From: Paramecium tetraurelia
Taxonomy: Eukaryota; Ciliophora; Oligohymenophorea; Peniculida; Parameciidae
Length of the DNA: 64,000 nt
Direction of reading: 5' to 3'
Assembly (NCBI RefSeq): GCF_000165425.1
Contig: NW_001798959.1
Span: forward strand, 238,871-302,870
How positions within the stretch are numbered: position 1 is the stretch's first letter; each line of letters starts with the position of its first letter. The notes under the pieces were generated by a model. The model did not search any database. It was given only the letters and a program-made list of their open reading frames with translations, and was not told where the DNA came from. Positions 5,927 through 62,639 of the stretch are shown here, one piece after another. Made by a program: the position numbers and the translations under genes.

Positions 5927-8900
5927 TCATTTATGATTCATCGCTTCTTGATAGACCTCATAAAATAAAGAAGATTTGTCCTTCAATAATTCACTTGGTG
6001 ATCCAGACTCCTTTAATTCTCCTTTGCTCATAACAAAAATCCTATTCAAATATCACTTAAAATTGTACTTATCACAATGCAAAATAGTATTAATTCTATG
6101 AGCTATGGTAATCACTGTATGATCCTTGAATAATCTCTAGATGGCCTATTATATTTTTTGTTCAGTCTCTATATCAATATTGGCTGTGGCTTCATCAACC
6201 AAGACTATTTTGCTTTTCTTCAATATGGCTCTTGCAATGCATATCAATTGTTTCTCTCCTGCACTCAAATTATCTCCTCCCTCATTTATAGAAGTATTTA
6301 ATCCATTCCTATCATTGATCAATTATAATAGACAACATTCTTCGATTACCTTCATTATTTCTTCATCACTGCAAGTTTCCAAGGGATCTAAGTTTTACCT
6401 AATAGTTCCAGTAAAAATCACAGGATCTTAAAGTATGGTGGTGATTGATGACCTCAATCTTTAAATTTATACTTTTGAGATGTCTACATCATCTATTTCT
6501 ATACGCCCTTATAAAGCTTCTACTATTCTCAAGATACTAAGTGTTATTGATGATTTCCCAGCTCCAGTTCTTCCTACAATACCTATCTTCTCTTAAGAAT
6601 CAATAGAAAAACTTAAGTTTCTAAGAACTAACGGCAGATTGCTTCTGTAATTTACTGAATAATTAATGAATTTAATTCTTCCCTGATTGGGCCATGATTA
6701 TTCTACGGTTTTAACCTCTGCCAGATTCTCTGATTCGATCTTTGTATACTCTAAGCATCTCTCAAAGGATATCATATTATTTTCTAATAAGCTTAAAGAA
6801 TCAACAGTTTATTGCACATTTCTATCCAAACTAGCAGCAAATGTTAATATCAGTCCTGCAAACGAAGGATTACTGGTGTATAAAATGCAATAACCAATTG
6901 CAAAAGTATTTACTATTAGACTGGCAAACCCGAGAACTTATAGAAACCATGAACTAGCTGCAATTGAATAATTGACTATCTATTTATTATAATCTAATTT
7001 CTAGGCAAATTCCTTGATCACAAAATCGGATTGAGAGTAAGCTCTTATAGTTGTCAACCCCATTAAAGATTAAGTAAAATAACTCAGAATTGGGCTTCGA
7101 CTTATAAGTTCTAATCGTTGAAGTTCTCTACTGGCTTTCATGTATAATCGTTGGATTTTCAAGCATATATAAAAGAAAATTATTAAGGGGAAAATGAGCA
7201 AGTATGTGCTAACATAGATACTTAATAAATTGTTGCTCAGAATTTAGCTAATCTTAGTTGAAAATTAAGCAATATTAATGTGGATTTCAACGTCAAGAGA
7301 ATTAATATCTTTAGTTAATCTATTCATGATTCTGCCTAGTGGAACTCTTTCAAAGAATTTACATTGAGGTGCAAACATTAAACAATTGATCATATCATTG
7401 TGTATTTGGGAAGAGGACTTTATACTTTGTGATACAATCATTGCTGCTCTTATGTAGGCAAACATAGACTGTATAAATCCTAGGAATAGAAATACCCAAA
7501 AGTAAGTGATTTCGCTATAATGATCTGACAATGAAGCATATCGACTAGTCCATTCTGTTACCCATAAATTAGCCATAATCTAACTGAGTATCCAAATTAT
7601 CAGAACAATAAATAGGATAGTTTAAAAGATTAAATTCTTTTTGTATTGCAGATACTTAATATATACTTCTTGATCGATTTCTCCCTTCTTCCTTTCTTCG
7701 ATAGTCATCAAATCTGATTTAGTTTTATCCATATCTTTAATTTACTCTTAATTCTAATCAATTTCCTTCTCGTCACCCAACTATACATCCTTACCTTGCG
7801 TGATATTTTAGTTCTCTTACTATTGGATATCAAATTCAAATTTCTTTTCGATTTCTTGGAATATTAAGTTATTCTGCATCTTCTAATAATCACCTTATTC
7901 TATGATTTCTCCCTTCTACATCAAATAAATGTAGTCTGTGTATTTACAGTAGTTTAATGCATGAGTAATCAGAATTCTAGTTTTTCCCTTCAAGAAATTG
8001 ATGAAACACTCCTTCAATATGAAATTGCCAACTTGAGCATCTACAGCACTCAAAGGATCATCCAATAAGAAGATTTCTGCTTTACTATAAATGGCTCTTG
8101 CTAAACTTATTCTAGCCTTTTGTCCTCCAGATAAGTTGATTCCTTTCTCTCCAATCATAGTTTGATCTCCATGAATTAAGATCTCTAAATCCAGACTGAG
8201 ACATGAATATTTAATGGCTTGTTCGTATAATTGCTCATCATAAGCCTTACCAAACAATATGTTCTCTTGAACAGTGGCATTTTAAATCCATGGCTTCTAT
8301 CCTACATAAGCAATAGGACTAGATCTATAGACCTTTGGTTTCTCACCATTGATCTTGTAGATCATCTCTCCTAAAATGCTTTAAATCAATGAGGACTTCC
8401 CAGATCCGACATCTCCTATAATCGATACAAACTTCCCCTTCTCCACTTTGATATTTATATTCTTCAAGATTTGTTAATCTTCAATACACTCCTTTCTCCA
8501 GAAAAAGTTGCCCTGAGTTATTTCTAAAGCAGAGGATGCAGCTGCAGCCTTGTTCTTACAATATAAGTCATTCATTAACTCATGACTATCTAAAAAGTTT
8601 TCTATTCTTTTTAAAGATACTTTGGTTTCTAAAAGGTCATTCAATGAAATTGGCAATAATTAAAGACTGGCAGCTAAAATAGAGAGCAATCCAATTATGG
8701 GAAAGGTCTTACTTGGGATTAATTGATTCCCCAAGAGTACATACAATCCAAAAGTAAAACTTAAAATCATTTAAGGGGATAGCCAACCCATGAACACATT
8801 TATCGAAAAATACTTCAATCTATCCTTTATACATTTCAGTTCAATTTATCTTAATTTGAAGATCTTTTCTTGAAAAAATTGTTCCAAAGCATTGATCTTA

Positions 8901-9845
8901 ATAAATTTGATCATCTAAAACACTTCAGTTGTTTCCTTTACTCTATTATCCTTAGACTTTAAAACCAACTTTTATGCCTTAACTATTTGTTTTCCAACAT
9001 AATTGTTTTGAAGTATGCTCAAAAAGATGATTACTATACCTACTATCACAGAGCTGCCTATTTCTTTGTAAATGTAGGTTAGTGTAATACCTAACTTAAA
9101 AAGATTGATTACATAATTAAATTGGGATAATAATCATATTGACTACGTTATTGGGAGCTTGTATGAGTCTCTGAACATCTACTTAAATCAAATTAGTAAT
9201 TTCTCCTATAGACCTTTCAGTGTTGCTTAACAATGAAATCTTGAGACATTTACTCATGATTTCTAAACTAATGACTGACATTATATCATATCCATAAACT
9301 TTCTTGATTAAATTTGTATTATTTTTACCATCATGAATCTTGAGTGGGACATCGACAATAAATTGAGTATTCTTATTAGCATTACTAGGAAGATAAGTAA
9401 TAAAGCTTAATGATAATCTTTATCTGATTCATAAATGTATTCAATTATGTATTTTGTTAATAACGGCATAGCCAATTGACTAAAAAGTACCACCAATTAA
9501 ATTAGAAATCCTTTCAAAAAATACTCTAGTTCATTAGCAAATAACATACATAAATAATATTTCAATATCAAATCAACTAAATTTTACTTTTTTTTTAGTT
9601 TTAAATGTTAAGAAAACTTGAGATGCCTAAAATATGATTATTGCGAAGATTCCAACTCATTAATTAGACTTTCATCCAATCCTTGTCTATAAGCTTTCTA
9701 AACATTTAAATTAAATACTTACATTCATTATGGGATATACATAAACGAAGAATAATTTTTTAAACCAAGAAGGCTTTCTTAAGACTATTCCTTCTTCAAA
9801 CATTATAGTTTATTAATTCTCCCAGATTATAGAGGCAGAATCCAT
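5927..9845 (-). CDS. ABC transporter, subfamily C (MRP type), full-size
   Basis: About 1271 aa after removing introns 6042-6068, 9303-9328, 9526-9549 and 9698-9722. Order: short cytosolic N-terminus, membrane domain 1, NBD1 (Walker [10 protein letters not shown] near 8405, signature LSGGQKAR, Walker [12 protein letters not shown]), membrane domain 2, NBD2 (Walker [10 protein letters not shown] near 6560, signature LSAGEKQL, Walker [13 protein letters not shown]-loop IAHR). The ABCC-type Pro/Glu-rich linker follows NBD1; there is no TMD0. NBD2 has Ala for Gly in the signature. Likely an ATP-driven exporter of organic anions or conjugates; substrate unknown. A run of three C on the coding strand (9124-9126) has one base too many for the frame. 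Confidence 0.95.
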
Positions 9846-10580: not shown

Positions 10581-12164
10581 TCATAAAGAGAGTTTCCATA
10601 TTTTAATAGATTAAGTAGATGTAGCAATAACATACTAATTTTCCTTTAATATTAATTCAGATCCAGGAGCACCATTATTCTCATTTGAAAATGTTAAAAC
10701 CGGTTTTGTTTCCTTGATATCCCAGATTTTCAGAGTGTAATCATTACAAATTGACCCGAAATATTCTTAATTCTAAGCAATAGAAATGCTCCAGATCCAA
10801 TTTTTACTATGACCTATGAATTCTCGAAGCAATTCATAATTATTGCCATTCCACAATTTTATCAACCCATCATAACCACTAGATATCATCAACTACCCAT
10901 TCTGCAAATAATTAATAGATGATCCTCCATATTCACATTAATGTCCCTTCCATTAATGGAGTATATTTGCTGATTGCTAATCATAAACAATAATGAACTC
11001 ATCCCTTCCTATGGTTGCAACTCTATTAGATTTGATAGATATTGCACAACCATAGACATTTTGAGTATGTCCTTTGTAAACTTATTATGGCAATTTCTTA
11101 TCAATATTCCATTAGATTGCTGTTTTGTCTGCACTGCTTGACAACAGAAACAGGGAATCTTCACTGAATGTGAGTCTATAAATGTAATTAGTGTGACCTC
11201 TGAATATAATTGGAGGTGCATTCCAATTGTTGCAAATCCATCCATATATTTCAAAGGGTTTTGATCCTCCAGCCACTAAATATTAATCATCTGGAGAAAA
11301 CTTAACACTATAAACTTATTAGGTAGATATCAATAATTCCTACTGGCAATTAGCTGATTTGAAATCAACAACTAAAACATATTTATCACTGCCTCCTATT
11401 GCTAATAAATCTAACTTATTTGAGATATCAACAGATGATATTTTTTATAATTATTTTTTATAGAATTATTCTATAGGTTGAGTCTTACAAATATCTTATT
11501 TCTGTAAATTTTCATATGAATTCAAGATTTCTAGGTATTTGCTATTTTGTTATTTGAAATATTCTTTGAATTTTTAAATTTACGCATTGTGCAACTCAAC
11601 ACCATATTGCTCAAATAGATTTATATCTTCAGCGAATAATATTGTTTATTTCAACAAATTATCTGAATATTATTAGAAAGACTTAAAATTGTTTGTGTAG
11701 ATCTCCTATTTCCAGAAGTATTTACCAAAAAACTAATCTATATTACCAATCACCAAATCTCTAACTGAATTGTATTCTTCTAAATTTAGTTTTTCATTCT
11801 TTACATATGTTTCAACTAAAAGTTCTAATAGTGACTCTTCTCTCTGCATCTTACAAATATCCTTAAGTTCTTGCATTATTTATAACAGCTTTTTTTGAAG
11901 AAACTCAATTGATAATTTAATCCTTTTGTGACTAGTTTTGTAAATATTGTTATTAAATTCTTTCTCTTGTTCATATGCTTTTAATACTAGTTCATCCAAT
12001 TTTTGCACTTCTATACAAGCGTGTTACAAATGATTCCCATATTTACAAACTTCACACATTCCTTTCTCTTTTTATGTACAACCTGGCTCAATGCAAATGT
12101 ACTACACATGTTGATGATCGTGATCAATTTGAGTGCATTCGATTGAATGTCTTAACTATTTCAT
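10581..12164 (-). CDS. B-box-like zinc finger / coiled-coil / WD40 protein
   Basis: 527 aa, no intron, every codon in frame. Residues 10-45 hold a Cys/His cluster of B-box type (CIEPGCT, CEVC, HLQHAC). Residues 50-210 are coiled coil. The C-terminal half is a WD40 propeller of about seven blades, with GH-x25-WD spacing and blades ending in SADKTAIQWN, GYDGLIKLWN and YTLKIWD. This N-terminal cluster plus helix plus WD40 layout is seen again at 49.7-51.4 kb. Such proteins usually act as scaffolds; no enzymatic role is visible. Start codon is only 19 bp from the divergent gene at 12184. Confidence 0.9.
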
Positions 12165-12183
12165 AGTATATATTTTAATTAAA
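12165..12183. promoter_or_regulatory. 19-bp space between two divergent start codons
   Basis: The ATG of the WD40 gene (minus, 12162-12164) and the ATG of the small plus-strand gene (12184-12186) are separated by 19 AT-only bases. If both starts are right, the two promoters must overlap the other gene's coding region or share this AT-rich segment. Confidence 0.4.
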
Positions 12184-12450
12184 ATGACTGAAATCAATTT
12201 TTTGAAAAGGAAATTTGAAAGTCTGCGGATAGTTGATGATGAAGCCCCAAAAACTACTAAAAAACCCTTTATTCAAGATGCAGATCTCTATCTATTGGGT
12301 AAAAAGATTTAATCCATTCATTTGGTTTAGCCTTTGTAATCAATGATCAAGAAACCTGATATCTACTAAACTTGTTTTCTAAAGAAGGAAAACTACAATC
12401 CTTTTTTATATATAGATCGACCTATCACAAAGGAAGAGGATGAGTTGTGA
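12184..12450 (+). CDS. Small basic hypothetical protein (88 aa)
   Basis: ATG at 12184 to TGA at 12448-12450, 89 codons, no intron. Mixed charged composition with Lys/Pro-rich middle and an acidic end (EEDEL). Base composition is richer in G+C than the downstream 340 bp. No domain, signal peptide or membrane segment. Divergent from the WD40 gene. No family recognised. Confidence 0.5.
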
Positions 12451-28492: not shown

Positions 28493-29848
28493 TCAATTTA
28501 GTTTGAATTAATGATCTCCATATTTTTCTTTATTAACCCTATATTCTGAATTGAATTTGATAGGCTTAGACATATTTTTATATGGAAATATCAAATCCAA
28601 TATAAAAATGGCAATATAATCAATTATGAGTAATATCAATAAATATAATCCAAATATTGGACCATTGCTTTAACAAGCCTTGATTCTAGCCAATAAAGAT
28701 GGATAAGGAGATGATAAAATTTTATTGTACACAGTTTCAGCTCTTTCAGCCACCATATGCCAACTGTACATTTTAGCTACCTACTCATGGTATTAATGTG
28801 ATGGCACATTCTTAGCAATTGGAATGGCTACTGCCAATTTTTCACAGATGTCATCTGGATCAGGCTTAGCAAAATTTACCATGTTTTTAGGTAAAACCTC
28901 AACTACCCCTCCTACATTAGTGGAAACAACAAATAAGCCACAAGAGGCAGCCTCAACAATAGCAATACAAAAGGCTTCTGTTAATGAAGTGTTCAAAAAG
29001 ATGTGACCTCTTACTAGTACTTCTCTGACTTTATGACCAGGCACTGATCCTAACTTAATTGTTAATATCCTTATTACCATCTCAACTCTGTCTGTCAAAC
29101 CATGTTTTTTGATGCTTTCTTCTATAATCTTCTTCTTTGGTCCATCTCCTCCAATGATGAAATAGACCTAAGGAAACCTCTTGCATATGGTTGGTACAAC
29201 ATCTACTAATAGATCCACTCCTTTTCGAAAAGTCAATCTGCTAATGACAACAATGTTGACTGTATTGAGTGGATACCTCTTAGATGGATCTGGTTTGAAT
29301 CTACTGCAATCAACGGCATTAGGAATTACACTTATGTTTCTAGGATCTAATGATGCTCTCATACTTAAATTTTCCTTGCTTATATGAGACACAGAAACTG
29401 CATGATCCACTTCACTCAAAATGAATTTCAATATTTTGTTAACATGAAATGAAGCAGCATCATTAAATGCAAATAACGAATGATCTGTAAATACAGTTTT
29501 GTACCCCATAGATTTAGCATGCAATAATAATTCACCTCCAAAAAATGATGTAGCTGCATGTGAATGCACAACATGAATTTCTTCCCTTAATAATATTTGT
29601 CTTAATAATGGCAAGCTCCCCATGTATGTAAATAGCACAACTTATTCATGTGCTGGCACAAAAGGACAGTAATACACCTTCAAGCCATTTGTCATGTAGC
29701 GTACACCAGTCCTATTGTCGTATTTATGGGTAATTATGATCACTTTGTGACCTCTCTCCATCAAACACAGTCCCAATTGAAATATGTGCATTTCAACTCC
29801 TCCTAGTCTTGGGTAGAAGAAATCACAGATGAGACAAATGTTAACCAT
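28493..29848 (-). CDS. PIGA: PIG-A: GPI-GlcNAc transferase catalytic subunit
   Basis: 443 aa, one 24-nt intron (29054-29077, AAG end). GT4/GT-B glycosyltransferase. The N-terminus reads [15 protein letters not shown], followed by [19 protein letters not shown] and [14 protein letters not shown]. The donor-site region has [11 protein letters not shown] and the catalytic [24 protein letters not shown] with the EX7E motif. A C-terminal membrane segment ([13 protein letters not shown]) places it at the ER. It transfers GlcNAc from UDP-GlcNAc to phosphatidylinositol, the first step of GPI synthesis, in a complex with PIG-C/H/P/Q. Abundant GPI-anchored surface antigens make this pathway important in Paramecium. 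Length is near the human 484. Confidence 0.96.
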
Positions 29849-30124
29849 TTTATTATATATTTTTTAATTTTATATTACAAACTTAGAATATTTTAATTAA
29901 TTAGATGTGGAACTTAGTTGTGCGTGTTGCTTTTATTCAAATAATTCCCTCTCTTTGGGTATTTTAAAAATTTTCCGTATATTTTTATATATCATGAATG
30001 AAATGAAGCATAAATAAATACATTAATTTAATGGCTTTAAAATCATATAGAACATTCTAATTGATTCTAGTTAATTCTCATTCTGAATTTAATTGCCATA
30101 AAAATTGCCCTATGACTTTAATAT

Positions 30125-35837: not shown

Positions 35838-38800
35838 TCAATCAATTTTGCTCGCTATCTTTTCATCCGCTTTCTACATTCTGGATTCAAAAATGTATTT
35901 TTTAATTTCATCTAACATAACTATTTCAATAGCTTGTAATAATTTGTTTGAAAACAGTTTTTTGGATGTAGATTTGAAATTATCAATTTCTTTCGGGATG
36001 CTTTACATAGCCAATAATAGAATTTATTTCAAGATATCATTAAAATTTTGATTTTTCAAATATTAATTGAACACATTTAAGTATTGTGGTTTGAATGTTA
36101 AGCTATCATCCATGATCATTCCTTCCCTTTTCAGATAGTCAATAATATTTTTCACTAACTCATGTTATTCAAGTTTTTCGGCTTCTTTAAGTTGATGTTG
36201 TTATTAGTTAAATAAGTCTCTTTTCTAATTAAAGTCAACAATCATCTAATACTATAATTATATTATACCTAATTCATATGATCGATTTCCTATTATGATT
36301 TATTTCCTAATTTACATTAGTCTGATCGAGACTTTACTTATTGTTAATAATTAGTTAGATTTTGAAGCTCATTTTACAATTATTCAAGTTTTGCATTATA
36401 ATGTTGTTTGTATTCATTTTTTAATATCATTTCTAATGGATCTTTGTATTTTGATTAAGCTCCTAATTCATTACATAGATTGTAAATAACAGGCCTCATG
36501 ATACCTTGATAAAATTTATTCATAGATTAGGAATTTGAAATTTATAGTTAATTGCATGCATTTTGCACATTCATATTTTAAACATTAAAACTCTAACTTA
36601 GTAAAGCTTATATCATTTTATTTGTGATTGTTTTAAACACCTACTCTTAATCACACAATTTTTGGTAAAAATAATCAAGAAAGAAGGCAATTCTTTGGAT
36701 TTCCTAATCTTTTTAATAATAATCTAACATCTTAGTGGAGAAATAATTTAATTCATTGTTCATTGCCTCCTTATATTGGTTATAATCTTCAATATCATTT
36801 TTCACTTGCTTATACTTTTTATTTCCTTCTCTTAAACCGATTTCAATCACTTTTTTTTTAATTGAACCATTTTCAGAACCTTATTTACATTTAGCCATTG
36901 ATAATTTTATATATTTTTATGCAAGTTAGCAAAAACACTTTTTAAAACCATCAACACTACCTTTACTCTCTTAAAAGGATTGACTTATGATTTCTAAAAC
37001 ACCAGAATCTAATTCGTTATAATTTTAAAATAAATTCTCAAGTTCAGCATAGTTAGTAGCATTCTATACAAGTTTTATTACGTCTTATAAAGATTGATAT
37101 TTCTATTCTACAGCTTATTATTCTAAATCAGTCAACCAAAAACCAGATTTTTTTAATCCTTCAATAGTAACTTCAGGGATTTTTTTCAAAAATTCAGTGA
37201 TTCCAATTTTTTTTAATGTTTTCATAGAAGTTCCACCAAGTTGAAGAGCTTCCTTGATTCCTACAGGTCCTGCCAAAGCTAATGAAGCTGCAATATTAAT
37301 AACTTTTTATTATCCCCAAGTTCCCCAATCAATTTTTATTCCTTTCCATGCTGATTGAACGGCAAGCAACATGTCAGCGATACCTTCACTTATTAAGGCT
37401 TACCCTATAGGCAAAGCAGCCCCAGCTGTGAATGCACATATTGCACATCCAACTACAAACTAACACAACCCAATGGCAAACATTGCTATATATTCAAAAA
37501 AACTTTTTTCTTTTTTCTTTTTATTCAGACTACCAAGTTTAGGTAACGGTCCGTCGTCAATCACTTCTTACTAATCTTTTATAGATTGTTCTAAATCACC
37601 ATTTTCTTTTTCATCCTTCATAATCACTGGTATCCAACTTAAATCAAGTACTTCATCATTAGGATTGAAGGTTTTCAAAGTGTTTAGAATAGAGTCGATG
37701 TTTTGAATTACTTTATTATACACTTTTAAATGATTATTAATCTTACTCTCAATAGTATCTTTTTATACATTATTTTACTTGATAAATTCAATAGCTGATA
37801 CATTAGTTATTTCTGAATCTTTTGTTAAGTCTAAGTCGGGTAATTCTAGATTTTATTTAGGAACCTTAATTTCGGACTATTAAAAATCAGGCAAATTTTA
37901 ATTATCTTAAAACTATTCTACTTAAATCCTGTTCAACTTAGAAGCAGTTGCAAATCCTTTTTCATCATTAATCTTAGTGAGAAATAAAGATTTTGCTTTT
38001 TCCAATGTTTAAATAGCTTCTTTACTGCTCCCATGTTATATTTCACTTAAACCTTTGTAATATTATACCTAAGGATCGTTTTCAGATATTTCAGCTGCCT
38101 TTTAAAATGTCTTTAAATCGTCCTTTTACAGTCCTTGATATACCAAATATTTTGGATTTTATCCTTCATCAGAATTCAACCAATTTTCAATTTCATCTTC
38201 ATTTAATCCAGTCTCTTGAAATTGTTCCAAATAAAGACCCCATTTCTCTTCTAAAATTTAAAAGGCGGCCCTATTTTCGTTTATTTTTACTTTGCTCTTT
38301 GCTAATTAACAAAACTTTTTAAAACATTTGTCCTCATTTAATAATTTTTTCATTTCTAATTCTATTTCGTTTGAATAGTATTATTCACTTAGATCTCTAA
38401 AGAATGTAAGGACTTCTAAATAATTTTTGCTTTATTTTTTCTAACTTGTTGAATAATAATCCAAGGCATCCTAAATCGTTTTGAGTTAAGTGAGACCTCC
38501 AACAAATAAATTTTCAGGGAAACTTACAATTAGTTCTGCAGTACCCAATTTACCTTACCTTGCTGTTCTACCAAATCCTTGAAGTTAAATTCTTATATTT
38601 CGAGGTAGAAAAGACATTATGACATGAAGACCACCATTCTTTTCTAATTCTTCATTAGTTGTTAAATCGGTCCCCCTTCCGGCCAAGTTTGTGGCAATGA
38701 TAACAGATTTAGGTCCAATTACCTTCTTTAATTCCTATTGATCATCTGTATAAGTGATAGATTATATTTTATATTTTTTTAGATAAACATCTATTTTTTA

Positions 38801-40786
38801 AACATCCTAAATTGTTTGATTAATTATAAGCACAGCCCTCCCTGAATTCAATTGTTATTATACCGATTTTTAAATTTCTTAATACCACTCATCTTTACTA
38901 AGAGTTGCAATACCTGGTTAGATTTTCAAAAGTCTTTTCTTAAATGGTGGCATGAAAACAAAATCGAGTGTGTACGATTTGGCTAAAAGATTCTAAGTAA
39001 CTTATGATCCTAAGGTGCCAGTAAGGCCTAGAAGTTGATTCTGATACCTTTTAAAGAAGCCAACATTAGATAAGTAGTTAGTACTGATTCTTAAAGGAGT
39101 GATTGGAAGATTGTGTTTTAATTAAATAAATTAATGAAGTCCTTTCTGCCATTACATATTATCCTTATGCACTACTCCAGTATTTTGAAAATCAATAATT
39201 CTAACATTATTATTGTCGATTAAATAATGCTTGCTCTCTTGAAAATGAAATTTAGCTAAAATTGCGTTTTCAATCCAGGTTTTTTTCATAAATTTGATAT
39301 AGTTTATTCGAAATTTTGGTATAAAATTGTACACGACTTGTTTAAGTTAAAGATCTAAGGTTTTTTCAACGTATTCATCTAAATCAGTAGTATAATATTC
39401 GTTTTCATTCATAATCATAACTTTTTTATCAGTTGAGAGATTGGGCAGTGATTTACAAATTTCATCCCAAATCAATCGAAGAACTTTTGTTAGATCCAGC
39501 ATTCCAGGAATGGGTGTGCTTAATAGTGTCTTATTACTATTGCCATCTATAAGCATAGAGTCTACTTCATCAACTATTATATATCCCTATTATCTACTTC
39601 CCATAGTTCCTAATTCTGAATATTCATGTCTTAGTATGTCAGCTTAGAAACTATGAGGATCTCCATAGATAACTTGAGATTCATAACATGGAAACATCTT
39701 TAGTTTCTAATTTTAGGATCCATTAATATTATGAGCAACCGATATAGAAAATAATTTATAAAACGAGGCTAATTCTTGTGCATCCCTAATAGCCAAAACT
39801 GGAGAACTAGTTACAATGTCCACATTAACTTTTTTCTTTTTACACAACAGAATTGCAAGCATAGCTACTATTAAGGTTTTACCTTCTCCAGTAAATATTT
39901 AGGCTAAGCGACCTTGGTTATTCTCATGACTATATAGTTCTACAACAGATAATAATTAAACTGGTCTTGGATAGTAGGAGAAATGCTTTTTAACTTTTGT
40001 ACATAACAAGTATAGATCTTGGTATTCCAATTATGGAGATTTATTAAAATCAAGATTTGCTGTATCAATTTATTGATTCTAAAAAGAGCTGTATATTTTA
40101 ATGAATAAATTTTAAATTTCTAAATTATTTCTCCTGTTTAGCTATTGAAATTCGGCAAAGAGTTGCTCAATTTGTTATTTTTCATACAGCATATTATCTG
40201 ATTATTATTTAGTAATGTTTTCTTAAGTGCGCTTTTAAGCTAAAATCTTACTTTCTCCTTCAAAAATTTTTAGTAGCTAAACAAACTCTTCAAATGATTC
40301 AAATTCACAATTTAAGACATTTTCTATAATATCAATGTTATAAACAGATTATTAAATATATTAAATAATACTATTTATTTCCTTATTACTATTAATTCTT
40401 TACTTCAAGTAGTTTCTTATCTTCATCAATTATTATTGGTTTGTTTGTTATTGTTATTGATTGAAATTTTATAGGTTTAATTGTTATTGATTTAATTATT
40501 ATTGATTTTATTGTTATTGATTCAATTATTATTGTTATTTAATCTAATCTTTTTATCCTTCTTGGACTTTAAGCTAGTTTTCCCTTTGAACCCATTTTAA
40601 TAATTTTTCCCAATCTGGATTCTCAATCAAAATAAAATTAATAATTGCCTCAGAACTCTAAAATTACTAGATTTATTGATATAAAAAGGATTATTATTCT
40701 TCAGAGAAATTTAATGAACACAAAATGGAATAGAAGCTTTCATTTTCTAGATCTGACCAATTTTTATTTTCTTTCTCACCTTACAT
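35838..40786 (-). CDS. Giant protein with SecA-type ATPase motor core (1641 aa)
   Basis: One intron (36246-36268, 23 nt); otherwise in frame throughout. Residues 1-80 are acidic/helical; 80-115 is a Gln/Asn tract. The motor starts near residue 290: Walker [19 protein letters not shown] (SecA-style TGEGKT), motif [15 protein letters not shown], a [11 protein letters not shown] segment, and the SecA NBD2 block [31 protein letters not shown]. After about residue 770 come TPR-like repeats ([20 protein letters not shown]), then a Gly/Ala hydrophobic region (about 1100-1160, [30 protein letters not shown]) and a long coiled tail. No preprotein cross-linking signature or SecB zinc tail is obvious. 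Function unknown; it is not the plastid or bacterial SecA. Some N-terminal extension to about 41793 is possible. Confidence 0.9.
40437..40545 (-). repeat. Gln/Asn tract encoded by AATCAATAACAATAA-type repeats
   Basis: Inside the SecA-like gene. An imperfect tandem of short units (consensus TTATTGATT on the given strand) encodes alternating Asn and runs of two to four Gln, using CAA, TAA and rarely TAG. Likely to vary in length between alleles and to be error-prone in assembly. Confidence 0.8.
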
Positions 40787-41937: not shown

Positions 41938-42460
41938 TCATTTTTATATACCAATGAACAATTCAAATTTGATGTTCTCTTTCAGATTTGTTTCCTCTGG
42001 ATACACCTCAAAATCATAATCATGTGATCTAGCTCCACCAAAATCTTAAGGGGTTAAATTTTGGTAATGATTACCAAGCGTCAATCACAACTTTGGGAAT
42101 AGGACCTGGTCCACAATCCAAACGGCAGAAATGATGAGCAGGTACTGTTACAGCTACTAATCCTTCTGGTAAATCAGTGACTTCACTCACCACTTCTCCT
42201 AAGACCATTTTGTATCTGATTTCCTCTTGGTTTTCAGGGTTTTAGTAATCATAATACATACAATAAGTTCTTTTAGGATGTATACGATGTGGAATTAATT
42301 CATGGACCTATTTATCAAAATATTCCTCATATGCCTTTCCAATTTATCCTGTTTTTGGATCTTATTCTTCTTTTTAGATGATATTCCGCATCAAGCCAAC
42401 TAGAGTGAATGTTTATAATTCAACAACTGTTCTATTTGGTATTTATGCTTATGGATCCAT
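41938..42460 (-). CDS. GyrI-like / effector-binding domain protein (bacterial-type)
   Basis: About 173 aa after one correction. The sequence matches the Bacterial transcription activator, effector-binding (GyrI-like, PF06445/Cass2) fold: an N-terminal VVELQTFTLVGLM strand, the core LPEGLVAVTVPAHHFCRLDCGPGP, then IDAWQSLPKFNP, and the closing DFEVYPEE plus FELFIGIQ strand. No HTH DNA-binding domain is attached, so this is a stand-alone sensor or binding domain. A CCCC run (GGGG at 42050-42053 on the given strand) must lose one base to reach the last third. The family is mainly bacterial; its presence here suggests ancient transfer, which is inference. Confidence 0.85.
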
Positions 42461-42874
42461 TATTCAATGATATATTATTTAAATTATAATTTACTTTCAA
42501 CCTTCATGCATAATTATATACTACGTTTTACACTATAATCAATATTCTATATTTAAAAATATAGAATATATATAAATTTAATTTTAACAATAACATTATA
42601 TTTTTATCATCTTATTAAGAATTTGAAGTAAATGTCAAAATAACAAATATAAATGTATTTAATCACAATTTTATAAATATTATCCATCAATCGTTTAATT
42701 ACCTTATTGATACCTTTTTCTCTAAAACCTCATTCCAAGTTATCAAATATTTTCCATCATTACATTCCGATATATTGGCTTGAATTCTTAAAGAGGTTTA
42801 ATATAAAGTTATAATCATTAGAAATAACTTATTTTACCTTTGTTAAGGTAACATGCACTCGGGAGCGAGTAGCG
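42461..42874. other. AT-rich spacer ending at assembly gap, with two hairpins at the edge
   Basis: Mostly A/T with no gene. The last 40 bases are unusual: an inverted repeat TTACCTT / AAGGTAA (about 42834-42851) and immediately after it ACTCG-GGAG-CGAGT (about 42857-42870), a GC-rich palindrome unlike the surroundings, directly before the N run. Confidence 0.55.
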
Positions 42875-51785: not shown

Positions 51786-54700
51786 ATGATTTCTTTTAAG
51801 GTAACATTGTTACTTTTCCTGTTTTGCATTTAGACGAAAGGGATTGATTTATGTAATGAGTATGAAAGATTTGAAAGTTGTGTTTAGAGTGATAGTAATA
51901 AATGCAAATGGGATGGAATTAGGAAGCTTTGTGAAAGAACTTTTGATTTTTAATAAGGGTGCAGTCTCAGTTTGAATAGGAAAGCTTGCATTAGACAAAT
52001 TGGGAATGTAATTGGTTAACCAGCTAAATGTATAACAACTATTCTAAATTAGGTCGCTTTTTATCAGTATGTGAAGACATACCCAATTTAGAAACAGAGA
52101 GATGTGAAAACAATCTCTCAAAGTCTGGGTGCATCTCAATTGCTAATCCAGAACATATTTGCTATTGGAAAGACAATAGTTGTCATGTACTACCTCGAAA
52201 TCAATGGTATTAAGTTAAAGAGGACTTTGATTAAGTTTAATATAGTGTTTCAGCTTGTTCATAAATTGAGAAATATTTAATTATTCATAGTAATCTGTTA
52301 TGGGATTTGATATCTTATACTCCAGATTTATTCACAGAAGCAAACAATTCATTCAAAAAGGAAATGGGTTTAGAAGTTACTGATGATATCATATTTGATG
52401 ATCCAAACACGGTTTCTTTACAAAATAACTATCAATTCTCGAATGGCTCATTTGCTTGGTATACAATTAGGGAGTCTAAGGAAATCACTTTAACAAATTG
52501 TAATATATGGTTTTGATAATCGTAGTATAGAAATCCTATAGATATAGGTATGGATGCGTAGCTATTGAGATAGAAAACGATAATGATTACTTCAATCTTA
52601 TCACAATTACAGATGAGCAGAGAGGGGTAAATCACTTATATTGCAAATATTTGAGTAGAAATCCAAACATTGCAGATGACTATGTATTTTCTGATGGAGT
52701 ATGTAAGAAATTTAGCAATCTTGACTTAAATGACATTTAAAAAACAGTCAAGTTGAATTTAAGTTGTAAATCACTGGACTACTATTAGTGTATTTATTTT
52801 GATTCAATCTCTTATACATGCAGATTAAAGGGATTAAATTATGAATATCCTTGTGTGGTTTAAGAAGATGATTATGTGGCTGATTGTGAAAATGCTTTTT
52901 GCACTGTTAAATAATGTTCAAAGTTAACATTTCATTATTTGGACACGGATACAAACAAATGTAGTGATAGTTGTTCGTAATTCCCTCTAAATAGTTAGAG
53001 TGCATGTGAGGCAGTAAAAGGATGTAAGTTTTTAGGGACGAGTTAAAGGATTATGGAGAAGAGTTGTTCTCCTAATGATGGGTGTGATCATTTAGGCATT
53101 GAGAAGATGTATTGTATATTTTTAAAGGATCAATGTGGATGGGATGAATTATAATAACGATGTTATAGAATAAAGGATGAAGAGTTCAAATTGATGAGAT
53201 GCAGTTAAGCCTTTAATGCCTAATCTTGCGTTCTCATCACTTTAAGCGACTAAATATGCTTTTGGAATTCCATAATACTCTAGTGTTAAAATGTATTAGA
53301 ATAGCCAATTCTTATATATTAAACATCTTTAATGGATTTATAACGTGTTAATCCTTTTCTTTTAATTTTAACGTAAGTAAGTAATGAAAACTTTTGCAAA
53401 TATCAATAATCATTTCCAAGTGAATATATTCCAAGTGAAGGAAAGTGCAACCTCATTTAATCATAAATTTAATCAAAAGATATTACACATATCAACATGA
53501 ATGCATGTCTTTAATTTTATCCTGGATTAAAAAGGTGGGATTCTTTAACTCAACAATGTATAAACCTTTTAGAAGTAGAAATTAAAGAGCTTGATTGTAA
53601 TACTTAAGTATTTGTTAATAATTAAGTATGTCAGAAATCTAAGGTGGTATTACCTGGTTATCAATGTGTTTATGATCGATAAAGTCATTCTTGTAAAGAA
53701 TTAGAATCTACACAAATTCAATCTTTTGGATGTGTTGGATATGGTTTTAGAAAAGAGGTTTGTTTATCTCTAAATGGACCGAGAGTTTATTGTAAATTTT
53801 CAGCAGGAATCTGTCAAGAAATTACTGAGAGTGAGATTAACTCAGTTCGTTGTTCATCCCTATAAAATGTGAACTCACAAGTGTGTAAATTATACACCTA
53901 ATCATAAACTGTTTGTTTGTATGATAAATCCATTAAATCTTGTTACACTCCTAGTGTTTATGTTAAAATAACCTATTAATCAGATATAAATCGATATGGT
54001 TGCCAATAAGTCTAAGACACCTTAACTTATTTCGACTTAGTTAAAAATGAATGCATTTCATTTAGTGAAGATGAGGATATTTTGTTGTCTAACTTGGAAT
54101 GTGCATAAAATTATATTAATCAAAAGACATGTTTGTTAATTACTAAAAGTGGTTAAAATTGTTTTTGGGATACAGTTGAAAATAAATGTAAAAATTATTC
54201 GGGTAATTTTTCTAATTGTGGAGATCAGGATCAATTTACAAGCAGGATTTGCTAGGCCATTGTATAAAATGTGTAAAAATAATTAATAAATGATAATTAT
54301 TGTACTTATTTTGATAACAAATGCCAAACCAAATCTACTACTCTATCAGATTGTGGAGAATCTGAAAAAATGAATGTACTTAGATGCAGTGGATTAACTG
54401 GATTAAATCAAGCTGGAGAATACATTTAAATGTGTGCATTTATTGACTTCAAATGTACTTCATTAATAGATGATTCTATGGATGCTTTTATAGTTCTGAA
54501 CCAGATATCGTGCTCTTAGGCCAACTTGAAAGCCTGTTCAAAAGTATAAACTTATGGAAAATATTGTTAAGTGATTGACTATGTTTCTAACAATTATTTC
54601 ATAATCGATAAGAAATGCGTATAGGTTGATAATAATAATCAATCATGTTAAATCATTAATACTAATTTCCAGAAAGATTAAATAAATCCCAATCATTGCA

Positions 54701-57700
54701 TAAGAGCAAATGACAGTTGTTACTATGATTAATCCATCGGATGCTAATCACCAATTAATGATGATTTGGAATGTGACACTCCAGGATTATCATATTCCGG
54801 TTGTATTCTAAACACAAACAATCATAGATGTGCATTTTATAATTCTAAATGCCAATATTTTCCAACATATTCAACTATTTCAAATTGCAAATATCTAAAT
54901 TAACTAGCTTGTTCCAATTATCAATTTAAAGACTGTTATTGGAATGGTTCAATGTGTGATGTTTCTTATGATTATGGTAGTGATTACTCTTGTATTTTGA
55001 ATTAGAGTAATCTATTTATTGTTTCAAATGGTTCCACGTGTATTTATGAAGAATAAGAATCAAATTACTAATTGTACACATGTGATAGCAAATTAAATTA
55101 ATTTGGTTGTGGATCAATCCCAAATTAATATTGTTAATTTATTTAAAACTAATGCTAATTTTATTCCACCACTTAATGTGAAGATTCAGGAACATCATGT
55201 AGCTTAAATAACTCATTAAATCTGAAATGCGTTCTCAAAGATGGTAAATGTTTTCATTTTCCATACAATCATCACTAATGTGATTTCTTTGATGAAACTA
55301 ATTATGAATTCTGTCTCCAATATCCTGATTGTGTTTATGTAGATTAAAAATGTTAATAAATTTATTAAAATAGATCTTATTGGTATTGTTATTATTTAAC
55401 CCAACTTGAATGTCTTATACAAAATAAACAATATTCATGTACATGGGAAAATGAACAATGTATTGAATTTGAAGGTTCAGCTTGTCCATCTCTTGACGGA
55501 TTTCATTCATATGACGCTTGCTCAAAGTTTAACAACTGTTATTATGGATATACTAAAAGTGGCTTGGGTTTTTGTTATTAAGATGCAAACTTTGAATCAC
55601 TAACATGTGAACAGTTAGATTAAATCTTCTGTCTTGATGATATGACTCATCTAAATTCTTCACTTATGTGTTATTGGGACTAATCATGCAAAAACATAAA
55701 TAACACAGAAGAAATGTAATGTGAAGATCTATAAAACTTTTAGTCAAGTTATCCAGCTTGTGCATCTTTAAATTAGGAACTCTGCATGTACTCATTTGTA
55801 GATAAGAAATGCAAGCTTATATAAGAGTATGTTTCAATAACAATTTGCTAAGGAACAACATCAAAATAATGCTCATAAATAAAAAACACTTGTTACTTTA
55901 ATAAGTCTAAATGCTAAACAAAAGGAATACCAGAACAATTAAATAAATATGGATGTATTACTTAATCTGGATCTTGGAAATTCACCTATTTCACTTGTTA
56001 TAAATTAACTAATGAAATGCAATCAAGTTGCATCAATCTGTCAAAGGAGGCTTGTTTGGGTGATCTCACAAAGGAAATAAGTTGCCAATGGATAAACCAA
56101 AAATGTATAAATTTGTTTTAGGATTAAAATAAAAAACTATTGTCATGTCAAAATCTGAATCAAAGGGCTTGCTTAAATGTCAGTCTATCAAATATCTTAT
56201 GTATTTGGAATGAAACAATTAAAATTTGTGATTCCCTTAATATAAGCAACACTGATTGTAGTCTTAACAATTTAGATCCCCTAATGTCTGTTAGTGTATG
56301 TGCTAGTTCAACAACTAAAAGCTGTGTGAGGCATTATGATAAAACCAAATGTACAGAAATCAAAGTGAAATTGGATGGCTGCAATCTCTTTGGATTGAAT
56401 AAATAGGCTTGTATATCATTAACAAAAGCACCTTGCTCTTGGATTTAAGTTGGGGATGGAGGATATTGCAATGATGTTAACATATATACAACGTTATGCG
56501 AGGACTTTGTAAATTAATCGGCTTGTCTAAACATCTAAACATAAGGATAAGTTTGCAAATGGGAAGAATCAACTTAATAATGCATCAATTACAAATTCAC
56601 ATCTTGTGAATCTGCCAATAACGAACATTCCATCATGGCTTGTAAAGGTGTTACCGAAGAAGCATGTTATTATGATCCCTGGCAGAAGTCATGCAATCAA
56701 ATCTTGTCAACTCCAAATATTTGTTCAAGTAATTTCAATTCTCGGGCTTGTATACTGTCTATAGAAGTCTGCGTATGGCAATCAAATAGATGTTACAACA
56801 ATCCAAATTTAAATTGCCTAAATTACAATACAAAAATTAAATGTCTTCAAAGCAATGCATAAAATTGTCAATGGCTTGATAATAAATGTCAATAGTTTCA
56901 ACCTCTTGTAATAAAAGTTTATTGCTACGAATTACCAACAAATATTAATAATTTTGCTTGCATGAATAACTCAATAGATCCCTGTTGTTTTGATTCAAAT
57001 TTTATGTAATGCTATGCAGACTAAAGTAACAAAATTGCAAAAATTTATGAATGGTCAACAATAACTACTATTCTAGCATTTCAATAACCTGGTTAAGAAT
57101 CCTCCATCTTAAATGGTAAATGTGAAGAACTTAAAAATCCAAATTACTGTTTAAAATCACGTATTCCAAATATATCATGTATTTGGAATGATTCTTGTTA
57201 AGAGGTCACTTAATTTGATAATTTATCTTGTTAAGACTCTCTCAACATCTGGGGATGTTTGAATATAACTAATGAAAATTAGTTTTGTTTCTGGAAAGAT
57301 TAAAAGTGTTTAAATTGGAATACTTCTCTAGGTATTATGGAAAATGTTAATAAAAATGTCTGTATTTAATATAGCATAAATAGCATTTATGAATTAAATT
57401 CTTGCGTTGAGAAATCAATTGAATCAATATAATGCACATCTGATGGAATAAGTAAAGCAACATGTTTATCCATTCCAAATAAATAATGCAAATGGATCAC
57501 ATCTTGTATTGATTTTACTTAAACTACTGAAACAAAATGTCATGATTATACAAATGTAACATATTATGTTTGTTAAATGACTGATTTGGCTTGCAATTAT
57601 GATTAAGAATAACATAATTGTATTGAAATTTCAAAAGAAATTATTGGATTTGGAGTCTCAAAATCAAGCTGTGTATCAAATAAGAATATTTCCACGTTTT

Positions 57701-59256
57701 GGAATAGTAACGGTTGTTAAGAACTGTATGATTTTATTGATTGTGATACTTCATTAGTTGTCAATGAATTAGCATGTCGTAAAAATGTAAAAAATACAGC
57801 ATGCCTTTATGACTCAATTTCTAATCGTTGTAAGAGCAACTTCAACAGATAGTCATTACAATGTAAGACTTTAGGATTAAATCTACTGGGTTGCATACAG
57901 GTTTAGCAAGAACCTTGTATTTTTAAGGATAACAAATGCTAGGTATTTACAGGAACGTCATAAATTTGTATGTTTATTAATCTAGTGAATTCCAAAGCCT
58001 GTGCATCAGTCATCAATTAATAATGCTCCTATGACTCAATCAATTTCAAATGTTAATCTCCATTAATCAATGAGAATTATTGTAATGTTTCAGGAGTCAA
58101 TAGAGATGCTTGTGAAACTAATACACTTTGTATGTGGAGTCAAGACGACTTAGATTGTAAGTGCAATTCAGATCAGAAAATTGATACTTGCCAATTCTCG
58201 AATATTACATAATGCAGGTCTAATAGTAAATGTTATTTCGATCTTGATATTTACAAGTGTATTAAGAAGTAATGTTATCATCTAAAGGAAGTTGAATGTG
58301 CTGCAATCATGGATAATAAGACTTGTTACTTAAGTTAAAATAATAGTTGTCAACCAGCAACTAAATGCGAGGATATTATTGATTCAAAACAATCATGTTC
58401 AACTATTTACATTGATTTATAACCTTGTGTTTAGGCAGGTGCTTCCTGTATATCAATTAACAATTATAGCAGTTATTGTTCGTATTCAGATTGTTCAAAT
58501 TCTAATTGTATTTTTAAATATGGGGCATGTAAATTGAAGACGTGTGATGATTACACTGCCCAAGAATGCCAATTAGTTTAAGGTTGCTATTTAGATTAGG
58601 AAAAAACATGCCAATAATTACTTGTATGTAGTCAAATTACTTAAGAGATCTATGGAGATCAAGTCACGTATATTTGTAACAAGTCATACGTTAATGGTCT
58701 TATATGTAATTGGTAGAGATACTCCTTGTTAGATGATACTGAAGTATGCACCAATCAGTATTGCGAGTAATTTATTATTATTTATTGTAGAATCTATGGG
58801 TCATCAACTACACTTTGTTAAGGGAATGAAATCAATGGATATTCATGTGTGTTATTTAATTAATTAGTTTGCAAGTAATGTGAATATATAACAGAACCAT
58901 GCTTTTGCGATTAATAAAAAAATGTTTGTTTCTATCAAAATGGCAAATGCAATTCTATTCTGTGTTCTAATTATTTAACTAAAGATACATGTTCCTAAGT
59001 CTCGGATCGTTGTTATTGGAGCACTTCAACTGAAAATAATTCACAAATTAGTCTTTGCTTAAAGTCATGCGAAAAAATCATGGATGCTATTGAATGCAAC
59101 AGTAGATCTAATGAATGTTATTTTGAAACTTCTAAGGGATTATGCGTAAAAGGTTAAAAATAAATACCAAATTTGAGTTCTGAAATTGTAATAGAGGAAT
59201 TTTATGCCATTATCATACAAGGGTATATTTTTGTATTTTTGATTATTTTTATCTGA
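51786..59256 (+). CDS. Giant cysteine-rich surface-type membrane protein (2481 aa)
   Basis: One intron (52500-52525, 26 nt) and one missing base near 52003-52007 (CIRQIG, then CNWLT); everything else is in frame for over 2200 codons. Signal peptide MISFKVTLLLFLFCIQTKG. The ectodomain consists of dozens of diverged repeats of about 35-75 residues with the pattern A-C-x(8-14)-C-x-W-x(4-8)-C (e.g. ACYYDPWQKSCNQ, VCVWQSNRC, NCQWLDNKCQ). This recalls the Paramecium surface antigen (PSA) repeats. Unlike GPI-anchored i-antigens it ends with a membrane helix (FYAIIIQGYIFVFLIIFI) and almost no cytosolic tail. Likely on the cell surface; function unknown. Confidence 0.92.
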
Positions 59257-59939: not shown

Positions 59940-62639
59940 ATGTAATTATTAACATCTTTAACTATTAACGCAGAAAGTAAAAACACATAAGCTAAATCAA
60001 CTAAGACTTAGAACACGCAGACATTCAAAGTGCATTTTTATCCCAAACAATATATAATTGAGACAAATCAGAAAACCATAACAATAGATAAACATTTGAT
60101 TATTGATAGGGACAATGGGAATCTGTATGAAAAAGGTATTTTGTGTAAGTATACATGTAGATGGAGCACCACCTTAGAGTGAACATCAATAAATGGCTTT
60201 TTCGGCTTTTTTAGGTACAATTTACATTCTGGATAAACCTTTCTTATTGTTAGTGGAGGAGGCTGAATTAATTTGTACAATAGACGAATAAGATATATTT
60301 TAGATTGCCTCAGTGGCATTCTTACCTTATGAACCAAATGAAAAAATTATGTAATGTGCTAAGGCTAATGAAATTTTAAAAATGATAGGGCATCTAAGGA
60401 AATTATTGATTATGGGATTCTACTTCTCTTACGGATATGATTTGACATTATCGAAAGTAAAATAGAAGATCGAGGAGAAGACTGAAGAGAAATTCTTATG
60501 GAATCTGAATTTGATTAGAAATCATCTTAAGTAATAAATAGATAGGAAATGGTTGACCAATATCATACAAGGATTCATAAATTATTTTTATTTGTACATC
60601 AATGGAAAAAAACTAGACTTCTATTTGATGAGCAGGAGATCAAGTAAAAGAGCTGGTACCAGATATAATGCAAGAGGTATAGATGATGATGGTAATGTTG
60701 CCAACTTCGTGGAAACAGAATAGATTATATATTATAATAATCATTGCTGTTCTCATCTTTAAGTGAGAGGGAGTGTCCCTATATTTTGGAATCAAAGAGG
60801 ATTGTTGACAGAAACTAAATTGATGAGGTCAGCAGAATTAACCAAAAGTGCATATAAGAAACATTTCAAAGGTCTTTTGGAAGATTATTCAAGGGTTATT
60901 TGTTTGAATTTGATGGCCAAAAAGAAAAGTGCAGAATAGATGGTTACAGAAGGATTTGAAGAACAAGTAAAATTGAATTCGGATGAATTAAATGGAAATA
61001 TCAGATATGAGTGGTTTGACTTTCATCATGAATGTAAAAACAATGATTTTTCATAATCTAACCCATTGGTAAGGAAATTGATGGAACATATTAAAAACTT
61101 TGGATTCTACTTAGAAGACTTAAAAACTAAAAAGGTTTTGTCAGTCTAACATGGAATCTTTAGGACCAATTGTATGGATTGTCTTGATAGAACCAATTTC
61201 ATCTAAACCAAAATAGCCATGAGTGTTTTCGATTTATCAACAAAATAATTAGGAGTGGATTTCTAAAATCTTTTAAAAATGTCACCCATAGAAGCATTAG
61301 ATGAAGATTCAAGCAAAATTACAAATTATTTCATATAGTATTTCAAGAACATTTGGGCAGACAATGGTGACATGTTATCAATCCAATATACAGGAACTGG
61401 ATCAACTCATACCAATATTACTAGAACTGGACAGAGAGACATCACTGGTTCTTTAGATCATGGTACCAAGTCATTGATAAGATTTGTGAATTAGAATTTT
61501 GTGGATAATGATAAATAAGAGGCCATTGATATTTTATTGGGCAATCATGCTGATATCACTGCCTCATATAGTAAATAGATAGATGAAAAGTTAAAATCAA
61601 GATTTTAGGATTTTTGCAGCTTTTCTGATCGATCTATTCTGGTGGTAACTTGGAATGTAGGAGGACAAACTGTTTCATAATCTTACGATTTAAATAAATA
61701 GATTGTTGATTACGCTGCTGACATTATTGTAGTTGGATTACAAGAAATGGTTACTTCTGGAACTGGACTGGTGGTTGGATCAAATTAATATCTATAAGAT
61801 TGGGATAAGTTGATTGCCAATAATCTAAGATAGAAGGATAAGTATATCTACATTAAATCCAAAGAATTGTTGGGAATAGGATTGTTTATTTATGCTAAGG
61901 AGAGATTTCAAGACAGAATCACCAAAGTTAGTTATGATACAATTAAACTGGGTTTCTTGGGTCAAATTGGAAATAAAGGTGCTGTAGTAATTAAAATGTT
62001 GATTGATGATACTTTAATCTGTTTTATCAATTGCCATTTAGAACATGGATAGAAGAGCCTCTCTACTAGATTGCAGAGTCTCAAAGATATTCATTAAAAT
62101 ATTTTCAACCAAATAGGAATAGGGAAGAAGAAAGAAGAGAAAATTGAATAATGTGATTATCGAATCTTATTTGGAGATCTAAATTTCAGAATCAACTAAG
62201 AAGCAGACAAAGTCATCACATCCACTCAAAGACACAAATTGTTTATAGATTAGAGTAGAATACATGAAGCCAAGGAAACTCTTTAGTATATAGTTCATTT
62301 AATATTAGAAACTTGTAAAAGTATGATGAAATAATGAGTAATCGAGAACAAAATTAATATCTAAAGTAGTACAAAGAATCTGATATTAACTTTCTCCCTA
62401 CATATAAATTTGAACCCTATTCAAATATATATGATAAATTAAGAACCCCATCTTGGACCGACAGAATCTTAGTGGGGTAGAATGAGCATTGTGAACACAA
62501 ATACCAATATTACAAATGCCATGATATCAATTATAGTGACCATAGGCCAGTTAGTGCTTTAATTAATGTAAGGACCAGAAAAGAAATTGCAGAAAAGAAA
62601 GCAGAAGTCATTTAATCAATTTATAAAAATGAATCATGA
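59940..62639 (+). CDS. Synaptojanin-like: Sac1 phosphatase plus inositol 5-phosphatase
   Basis: 883 aa, introns 60136-60160 and 62286-62308. The N-terminal Sac domain has the CX5R-T loop CMDCLDRTN near residue 402 and upstream WNQRG and RTNC signatures. The C-terminal inositol 5-phosphatase domain (from about 560) has [44 protein letters not shown] and [10 protein letters not shown], i.e. all metal-binding and catalytic motifs. It would dephosphorylate phosphoinositides at several positions, as synaptojanins/INP51-53 do in endocytosis. No proline-rich tail. Start: ATG 59940; an in-frame ATG at 59826 is possible. It overlaps the convergent gene at 62608 by about 30 bp as read. Confidence 0.93.

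Follow-up and report, generated by a model that had tools for sequence, protein, structure and literature searches.

What does a SecA-type motor do in a cell that has no Sec channel of the bacterial kind? The question is raised by a 64,000-nt stretch of Paramecium tetraurelia DNA (assembly GCF_000165425.1, contig NW_001798959.1, positions 238,871-302,870 of the forward strand; here called the window). Its minus strand encodes a protein of 1641 amino acids (aa; positions 35838..40786 of the window, ciliate code table 6, ATG start, TGA stop). Residue numbers below are those of this protein unless another is named, and all parts of its gene lie on the minus strand. An earlier note on this DNA had described a SecA-type motor fused to a glutamine/asparagine tract, TPR-like repeats, a hydrophobic region and a coil, and had left its role open. 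Our analysis indicates that this interpretation was too narrow. Judged from sequence, the gene belongs to a family of giant SecA-like proteins whose members come mainly from bacteria that are intracellular or associated with protists. The hydrophobic region is real, and is a conserved module that is shared with these bacteria and paired with the SecA core. The layout of N-terminal helical part, SecA core, helical linker, hydrophobic module (named EGI in this analysis) and helical tail corresponds to the backbone of toxin- or effector-like giants of intracellular bacteria.

The SecA core of a ciliate nuclear protein

The core occupies aa 249-869 (38180..40042), as delimited by the family hidden Markov model (HMM) envelope, Pfam and structure. 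It comprises two nucleotide-binding domains (NBD1 and NBD2), an insert resembling the preprotein cross-linking domain and a long helix that follows NBD2; it thus includes, and extends beyond, the range of aa 280-780 given previously. Every motif named in the earlier note is present. NBD1 carries the TGEGK Walker A and DEVDS motif II signature, in the form of TGEGKT (aa 299-304; 39875..39892; all 24 rows of alignment A4 have TGEGK) and DEVDSMLID (aa 406-414; 39545..39571). TGTLGS starts at aa 589. The NBD2 motifs (aa 698-745; 38552..38695), an 11-residue block at aa 698, GGLHVI at aa 718 and GRTARQG at aa 739, hold the signature ATNxAGRGTD, GGLHVI and GRxxRQG.

In Pfam, SecA_DEAD (PF07517; 6.6e-28), P-loop_SecA (5.8e-8) and SecA_PP_bind (the preprotein cross-linking domain PF01043; 3e-6, 28.2 bits against 23.5) all lie above their curated cut-offs, whereas the generic families DEAD (1.6e-8) and Helicase_C (7e-4) are weaker. 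SecA models of NCBIfam match down to 2.3e-50, and the equivalog cut-offs for housekeeping SecA are missed by a wide distance (151.8 bits against 814, and 146.8 against 800). SecA accounts for 22 of 23 matches to PDB sequences, the remaining one being DDX41 at 0.003. An AlphaFold2 model of aa 240-1000, built from 24 family sequences, reached a predicted template modelling score (pTM) of 0.73 and a mean predicted local distance difference test (pLDDT) of 75.3. Foldseek ranked SecA or SecA2 at positions 1-36 (best 2.1e-31), followed by RECQL5 at 3e-9, and this fold match recovers the two SecA NBDs. Since the TM-scores are moderate (0.40-0.58 by query length), the overall domain arrangement of the model is not established. 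After NBD2 the model places a 44-residue helix (aa 789-832), the position at which the scaffold helix sits in classical SecA. By sequence and predicted fold, the protein is thus a SecA superfamily ATPase; a generic helicase of superfamily 2 is rejected, as Pfam scores, PDB sequences and Foldseek all favour SecA.

The gene is nuclear. Exon 1 (36269..40786) encodes aa 1-1506 and exon 2 (35838..36245) aa 1507-1641 and the stop. They are separated by a 23-nt GT..AG intron (36246..36268), a call that is supported because the spliced tail aligns across the junction (E 4e-20) with a paralog on contig C167 whose frame is open at that place. The use of TAA and TAG as glutamine codons and the short intron were both described correctly before. 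Bacterial contamination, which the earlier note had also dismissed, is rejected on the ciliate code, the intron and the presence of paralogs within the same assembly (69.07 Mb in 231 contigs; the window lies on our contig C6).

Giant bacterial relatives and the EGI module

A scan of bacterial and archaeal genomes returned at least 187 relatives in 590 stretches, from which 80 loci were kept. HMM score and open reading frame (ORF) length placed 37 of these in the SecA-like kind (L032-L064, L066, L071, L073 and L103). Counted as loci from record titles rather than as genomes (L043/L044, L035/L045 and L063/L073 are same-genome pairs), they fall into 14 Rickettsiales (Arcanobacter is placed in this order), 9 Legionellales, 3 Chlamydiae and 2 Amoebophilaceae. 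These make up 28 of the 37; the nine others are metagenome-assembled genomes (MAGs) of Bacteroidetes and Alphaproteobacteria and one each from Margulisbacteria, Neisseriaceae and an unnamed bacterium. The bacterial SecA-like ORFs reach 4,507 aa, and a plasmid gene of Candidatus (Ca.) Megaera polyxenophila 5,238 aa. Ordinary SecA ORFs measure about 650-960 aa, except for one of 1,427 aa. With E. coli SecA as query in ten genomes that carry SecA-like loci, ordinary SecA was found as a long copy in six (L113-L118) and in pieces in three (G005, G007 and G008; best pieces 57-65% identical); in G009 the query returned the giant alone.

Mobile and viral records were also searched. A tblastn search with the core matched 126 plasmid records, headed by plasmids of two bacteria from Euplotes cultures, Ca. 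Megaera polyxenophila and Ca. Bandiella woodruffii, and by one of Legionella geestiana. The viral_contigs scan gave 3 relatives among 40 pattern matches. Phage records gave 20 matches of 23-29% identity, save two short pieces (30 and 40%), and none of them is close to the group of the window protein. Two further giants from MAGs stand outside the 37 and have no EGI module, L080 (Elusimicrobia, 5,255 aa) and L101 (Ruminococcaceae, 2,981 aa); they possibly represent another toxin lineage.

The EGI module covers aa 1081-1189 (37220..37546) of the ciliate protein. It consists of a hydrophobic stretch followed by the consensus LIxEGIxDxIxAxxSxxxGxxFxWxxYxxxKxISxA, and is predicted to be helical. 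The most hydrophobic part (aa 1094-1134; 37385..37507) peaks at 2.29, and seven other profiled proteins peak at the matching place with 1.98-2.60. A profile of the module (about 115-120 aa), seeded with six hand-chosen segments and extended by iterative HMM search, found it in 31 ORFs. Three belong to the ciliate (the window protein and its paralogs on C167 and C193), and the other 28 to bacteria or viral contigs, counting the near-duplicates L026/L027, L041/L051 and L030/L048 and one gene twice (L029/L112). In the 30 ORFs that have both, EGI lies 162-648 aa downstream of the SecA core, and the window protein shows the same order, a SecA core and then EGI, that defines the family. None of the 41 ordinary SecA ORFs of the same set contains it. 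EGI is a conserved module that many of the SecA-like giants carry together with their SecA core.

EGI was seen in 22 of the 37 bacterial SecA-like loci and in nine of ten chosen symbiont genomes. Among sampled genomes it was found in 23 of 261 from the order of a Rickettsia endosymbiont (G001) and in 6 of 232 from the phylum of a Parachlamydiales MAG (G007), two of the six being marginal matches (3e-6 to 9e-6) in short ORFs; some positive genomes had also contributed rows to the query. In a control phylum, that of a verrucomicrobial genome, none of 288 sampled genomes was positive, an empty answer that is weak by itself. In the genome G007, source of L042, EGI was matched four times, in ORFs of 1,807-4,507 aa, which looks like a local expansion of the family. 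Searches of Pfam and PHROGs gave no convincing relative of the module, only single-member matches to which we attach no weight (Band_7 0.0013, GPI 0.0053, phrog_58 0.0021), and the best match among PDB sequences (0.036) was no more convincing.

Some of the bacterial giants carry exchangeable C-terminal ends. Compared in blocks of 100 aa, L026 and L027 show mostly 95-100% identity up to about residue 3,000 (83-94% in some blocks), which then drops to 27% at the C-terminal end. There, L026 matches the tip of L046, a protein of a Peranema endosymbiont (37% over 152 aa), and L027 the tip of L041, from a Rickettsia endosymbiont (37% over 133 aa). L041 and L051 likewise have a common backbone and different ends; L030 and L048 are alike over their full length. 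The tips include a WHH nuclease in L026 (2e-15) and L046 (3.7e-13), Colicin_D in L044 (1.5e-18) and an ADP-ribosyltransferase-like domain in L033, where one of two models falls below and the other just above its cut-off. A SUKH-type immunity gene directly follows L026 (3.7e-23). L026 itself (L026:3105-13766), on a viral_contigs record that looks bacterial, also has a weak N-terminal match to a RickCE-like protease (0.0029), below the cut-off. PADLOC assigned no anti-phage defence family to any of three proteins submitted. In the window protein, Pfam found no toxin family in the part encoded by exon 1, and no C-terminal tip was recognised.

Ciliate copies, direction of transfer and function

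The genome holds at least five SecA-like loci, namely the window gene and those on contigs C167, C43, C193 and C91, whose cores are 71%, 66%, 34-35% and 43% identical to that of the window protein, respectively. C193 is an open frame of 3,699 aa. C91 (L018/L023, at about 31-36 kb of its contig) is degenerate, with an open frame of 1,192 aa and most SecA motifs lost; it retains a Walker A-like PGEGKT, followed by repeats that look WD40-like by eye. For a first tree, 92 rows were reduced to 64, with seven loci (truncated, split or near-duplicate) and 28 of the 47 ordinary SecA rows left out. A more careful tree of 48 rows also omits the long branches C91, L101 and L052, eight more ordinary SecA rows and the SecA-like rows L047, L049, L050, L054 and L058.

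In the 48-row tree the giants and the ciliate copies form a clade of 29 rows (support 100/100), which stands apart from the Legionella-type rows, from L080 and from housekeeping SecA. The window gene is placed together with C167 and C43 (100/100), and the bacterial sister of this trio is not resolved in the tree. C193 instead joins the plasmid gene of Megaera (L112) and a MAG of Legionella (L071), again with 100/100. Its alignment with the Megaera protein spans 3,503 columns (28% identity, E 0) but does not reach the final 1,383 residues of that protein. C193 itself ends, after a glutamine-rich coil (seen by eye), in a hydrophobic segment (aa 3664-3689 of C193, L021) that looks like a tail anchor standing where the Megaera homolog has its further residues, in place of cargo. 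Forcing window, C167, C43 and C193 into a single clade (C91 omitted) cost 46 likelihood units (p of the approximately unbiased test 0.019), the test group having been chosen after the first tree had been seen. The five loci probably represent two lineages, and a single ciliate origin is moderately disfavoured.

On balance, we give roughly even odds (about 0.5) to the proposal that the ciliate gene stems from a toxin backbone which lost its weapon and became an ATPase that moves polypeptides in association with a membrane, its motor permanently joined to a hydrophobic module. Here, EGI would insert into or anchor on a membrane; the structure model places helices at aa 1096-1119, 1125-1148 and 1154-1192, with a block pLDDT of 71-80 over the first two and of about 50 in the third. 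The SecA core, with its intact ATPase motifs and polypeptide-binding insert, would spend ATP on pushing or pulling unfolded polypeptide there. In the bacterial kin, the polypeptide moved may be the protein's own tip, which would make them self-delivering; in the ciliate, where the tip is gone, some other polypeptide would be the client. Handling or resisting intracellular bacteria is our guess at the most natural use. Among the roles suggested previously, a membrane-associated transport or conflict device would fit best, and proteostasis is retained as a rival. The boldest version, a single-polypeptide translocase working without SecYEG or Sec61, derived from a delivery backbone of symbiont toxins and domesticated at least twice in a ciliate nucleus, plausibly against intracellular bacteria, seems unlikely as a whole.

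Several observations weigh against the favoured reading. The helical wing and scaffold family PF07516, listed for the HMM check together with PF07517 and PF01043 and alone in failing to match, gave no hit in the ciliate genome, and 10 of 14 control genomes were positive. Fifteen of the 37 bacterial SecA-like loci have no EGI; several of their contigs end early and others are complete, among the latter Legionella-type ORFs of about 1,000-1,350 aa. The model of the EGI region as a whole is poor (mean pLDDT 57, pTM 0.31), and because of this channel formation by EGI is a candidate function only. A toxin-like Pfam family at E<=0.01 was found in three of 16 bacterial tails scanned (L033, L046 and L044), which makes a toxin reading secure for part of the kin. 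Ten tails matched no Pfam family at all (L112, L027, L041, L038, L053, L042, L040, L066, L060 and L031), L039 gave a sub-threshold lipase match, and L103 and L051 gave unrelated weak matches. The tail of the window protein matches no bacterial tail. Finally, the eukaryote side consists of one genome, and both a disarmed toxin and an ancestor of the toxins fit.

This last point leads to the opposite direction of transfer, in which intracellular bacteria would have taken up genes of an old SecA-like family of eukaryotes several times and then armed them with toxin tips. In 2013, Wolbachia wBol1/wHa was described as having two long secA genes of eukaryotic-like type, whose homologs occur in insects, Daphnia, Tetrahymena and Polysphondylium, and transfer from eukaryotes was argued for (PMC3639933). 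Against this stand the position of C193 inside a bacterial group and the greater diversity of the bacterial giants compared with the ciliate copies, both seen with one eukaryote sampled. We regard this reversal as unlikely, if well short of far-fetched; in the favoured reading, the backbone of the bacterial giants would have passed to the ciliate.

Alternatively, the protein may be a cytosolic SecA-like unfoldase or chaperone acting in proteostasis, with EGI as a structural core or dimer interface. The hydrophobicity profile shows no N-terminal hydrophobic signal, confidence in the EGI model is low, and the glutamine-rich and helical parts would suit a cytosolic scaffold. However, the strength of the hydrophobic peak here and in the seven other proteins, the retention of this module beside SecA in distant bacteria and the terminal hydrophobic segment of C193 all speak for a membrane, and we consider a cytosolic role rather unlikely.

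A recently transferred or decaying gene without function would have a precedent in the degenerate C91, but the open 1641-aa frame with all catalytic motifs argues otherwise. Between window and C167, dN and dS are 0.321 and 1.20 overall, 0.199 and 1.14 in the core (dN/dS about 0.17), 0.280 and 1.22 in EGI and 0.423 and 1.23 in the exon-1 part of the tail; these rates are rough because dS is high. They indicate purifying selection on the window gene, weakest in the tail among the parts measured. A recent dead copy is rejected on this ground, and decay in general is very unlikely. A SecA of plastid type, retained after the loss of an alveolate plastid, can be set aside as scarcely credible: alveolates do include plastid bearers, but the core groups with the symbiont giants and away from housekeeping SecA (in rows without cyanobacterial or plastid SecA), and the protein has no hydrophobic start.

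Should the proposal be right, it would explain what a SecA ATPase does where the bacterial Sec channel is missing, since the motor would have arrived together with a membrane module. It would also bring the puzzling eukaryotic-like secA genes, the giant proteins of symbionts and the nuclear genes of a ciliate into one family, make EGI a testable module, and show that symbionts and hosts can exchange toxin backbones.

Other features and comparison with known systems

Outside core and EGI, the glutamine/asparagine-rich tract reported earlier lies at aa 80-125 (40412..40549), with 24 Q and 8 N in 46 residues. The helical parts of the proposed fusion also stand; its TPR repeats are less secure, as Pfam gave no TPR match at E<=1 in the protein. 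The region concerned (about aa 870-1000) is TPR-like by pattern only and lies in a helical linker (aa 870-1080; 37547..38179) placed by consensus and low-confidence helices. The helical tail (aa 1190-1506 in exon 1; 36269..37219) runs on into exon 2 and holds no recognised toxin domain.

Nine other ORFs of the window were compared with Pfam. Ordinary neighbours are an ABC transporter (6053-9049), a WD40 protein (10581-12197), a PIGA-type glycosyltransferase (28493-30055) and a synaptojanin-like phosphatase (60103-62337). A short ORF at 42020-42463 on the minus strand has a Cass2/GyrI-like effector-binding domain (1.6e-19), a bacterial-type small-molecule binding fold. An ORF of 2,266 aa at 52456-59253 on the plus strand matched no Pfam family at E<=0.001.

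SecA-domain genes in eukaryotes, Tetrahymena included, have thus been known since 2013 (PMC3639933). Eukaryotic-like secA genes have also been placed in the eukaryotic association module (EAM) of phage WO (PMC5062602, PMC9203015), and a SecA DEAD-like protein of L. fallonii is listed in a section on transferred eukaryotic proteins (PMC4256840). SecA-like domains are a feature in common with Amoebophilus effectors (PMC3482391) and occur in giant actinobacterial toxins (PMC8195603). In the literature searched, which left subscription papers mostly outside, we came across neither the EGI module nor its pairing with SecA, nor any exchange of tips on such a backbone.

Compared by description, the Wolbachia and insect genes are similarly very long SecA-domain genes common to eukaryotes and an intracellular bacterium, whereas the excerpts of PMC3639933 mention neither a hydrophobic partner module nor tip swapping. 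With bacterial SecA and SecA2 the window protein shares two NBDs, the preprotein cross-linking insert, the SecA-specific motifs and, in the model, the long helix after NBD2. It differs from them in having no PF07516 match, in falling below the NCBIfam cut-offs, in its separate clade and in a motor joined to EGI and a long tail. Polymorphic toxins resemble some of the bacterial kin, which combine a constant backbone with exchangeable C-terminal tips, in one case with an adjacent SUKH gene; the window protein is unlike them in its want of a recognised tip. The Megaera protein (Megpolyxen_01749, CP113870) matches the window protein in two places only, with 38.7% over 545 in the SecA core and 29% over 99 in the region of EGI, whereas the paralog C193 can be aligned with it across the 3,503 columns given above.

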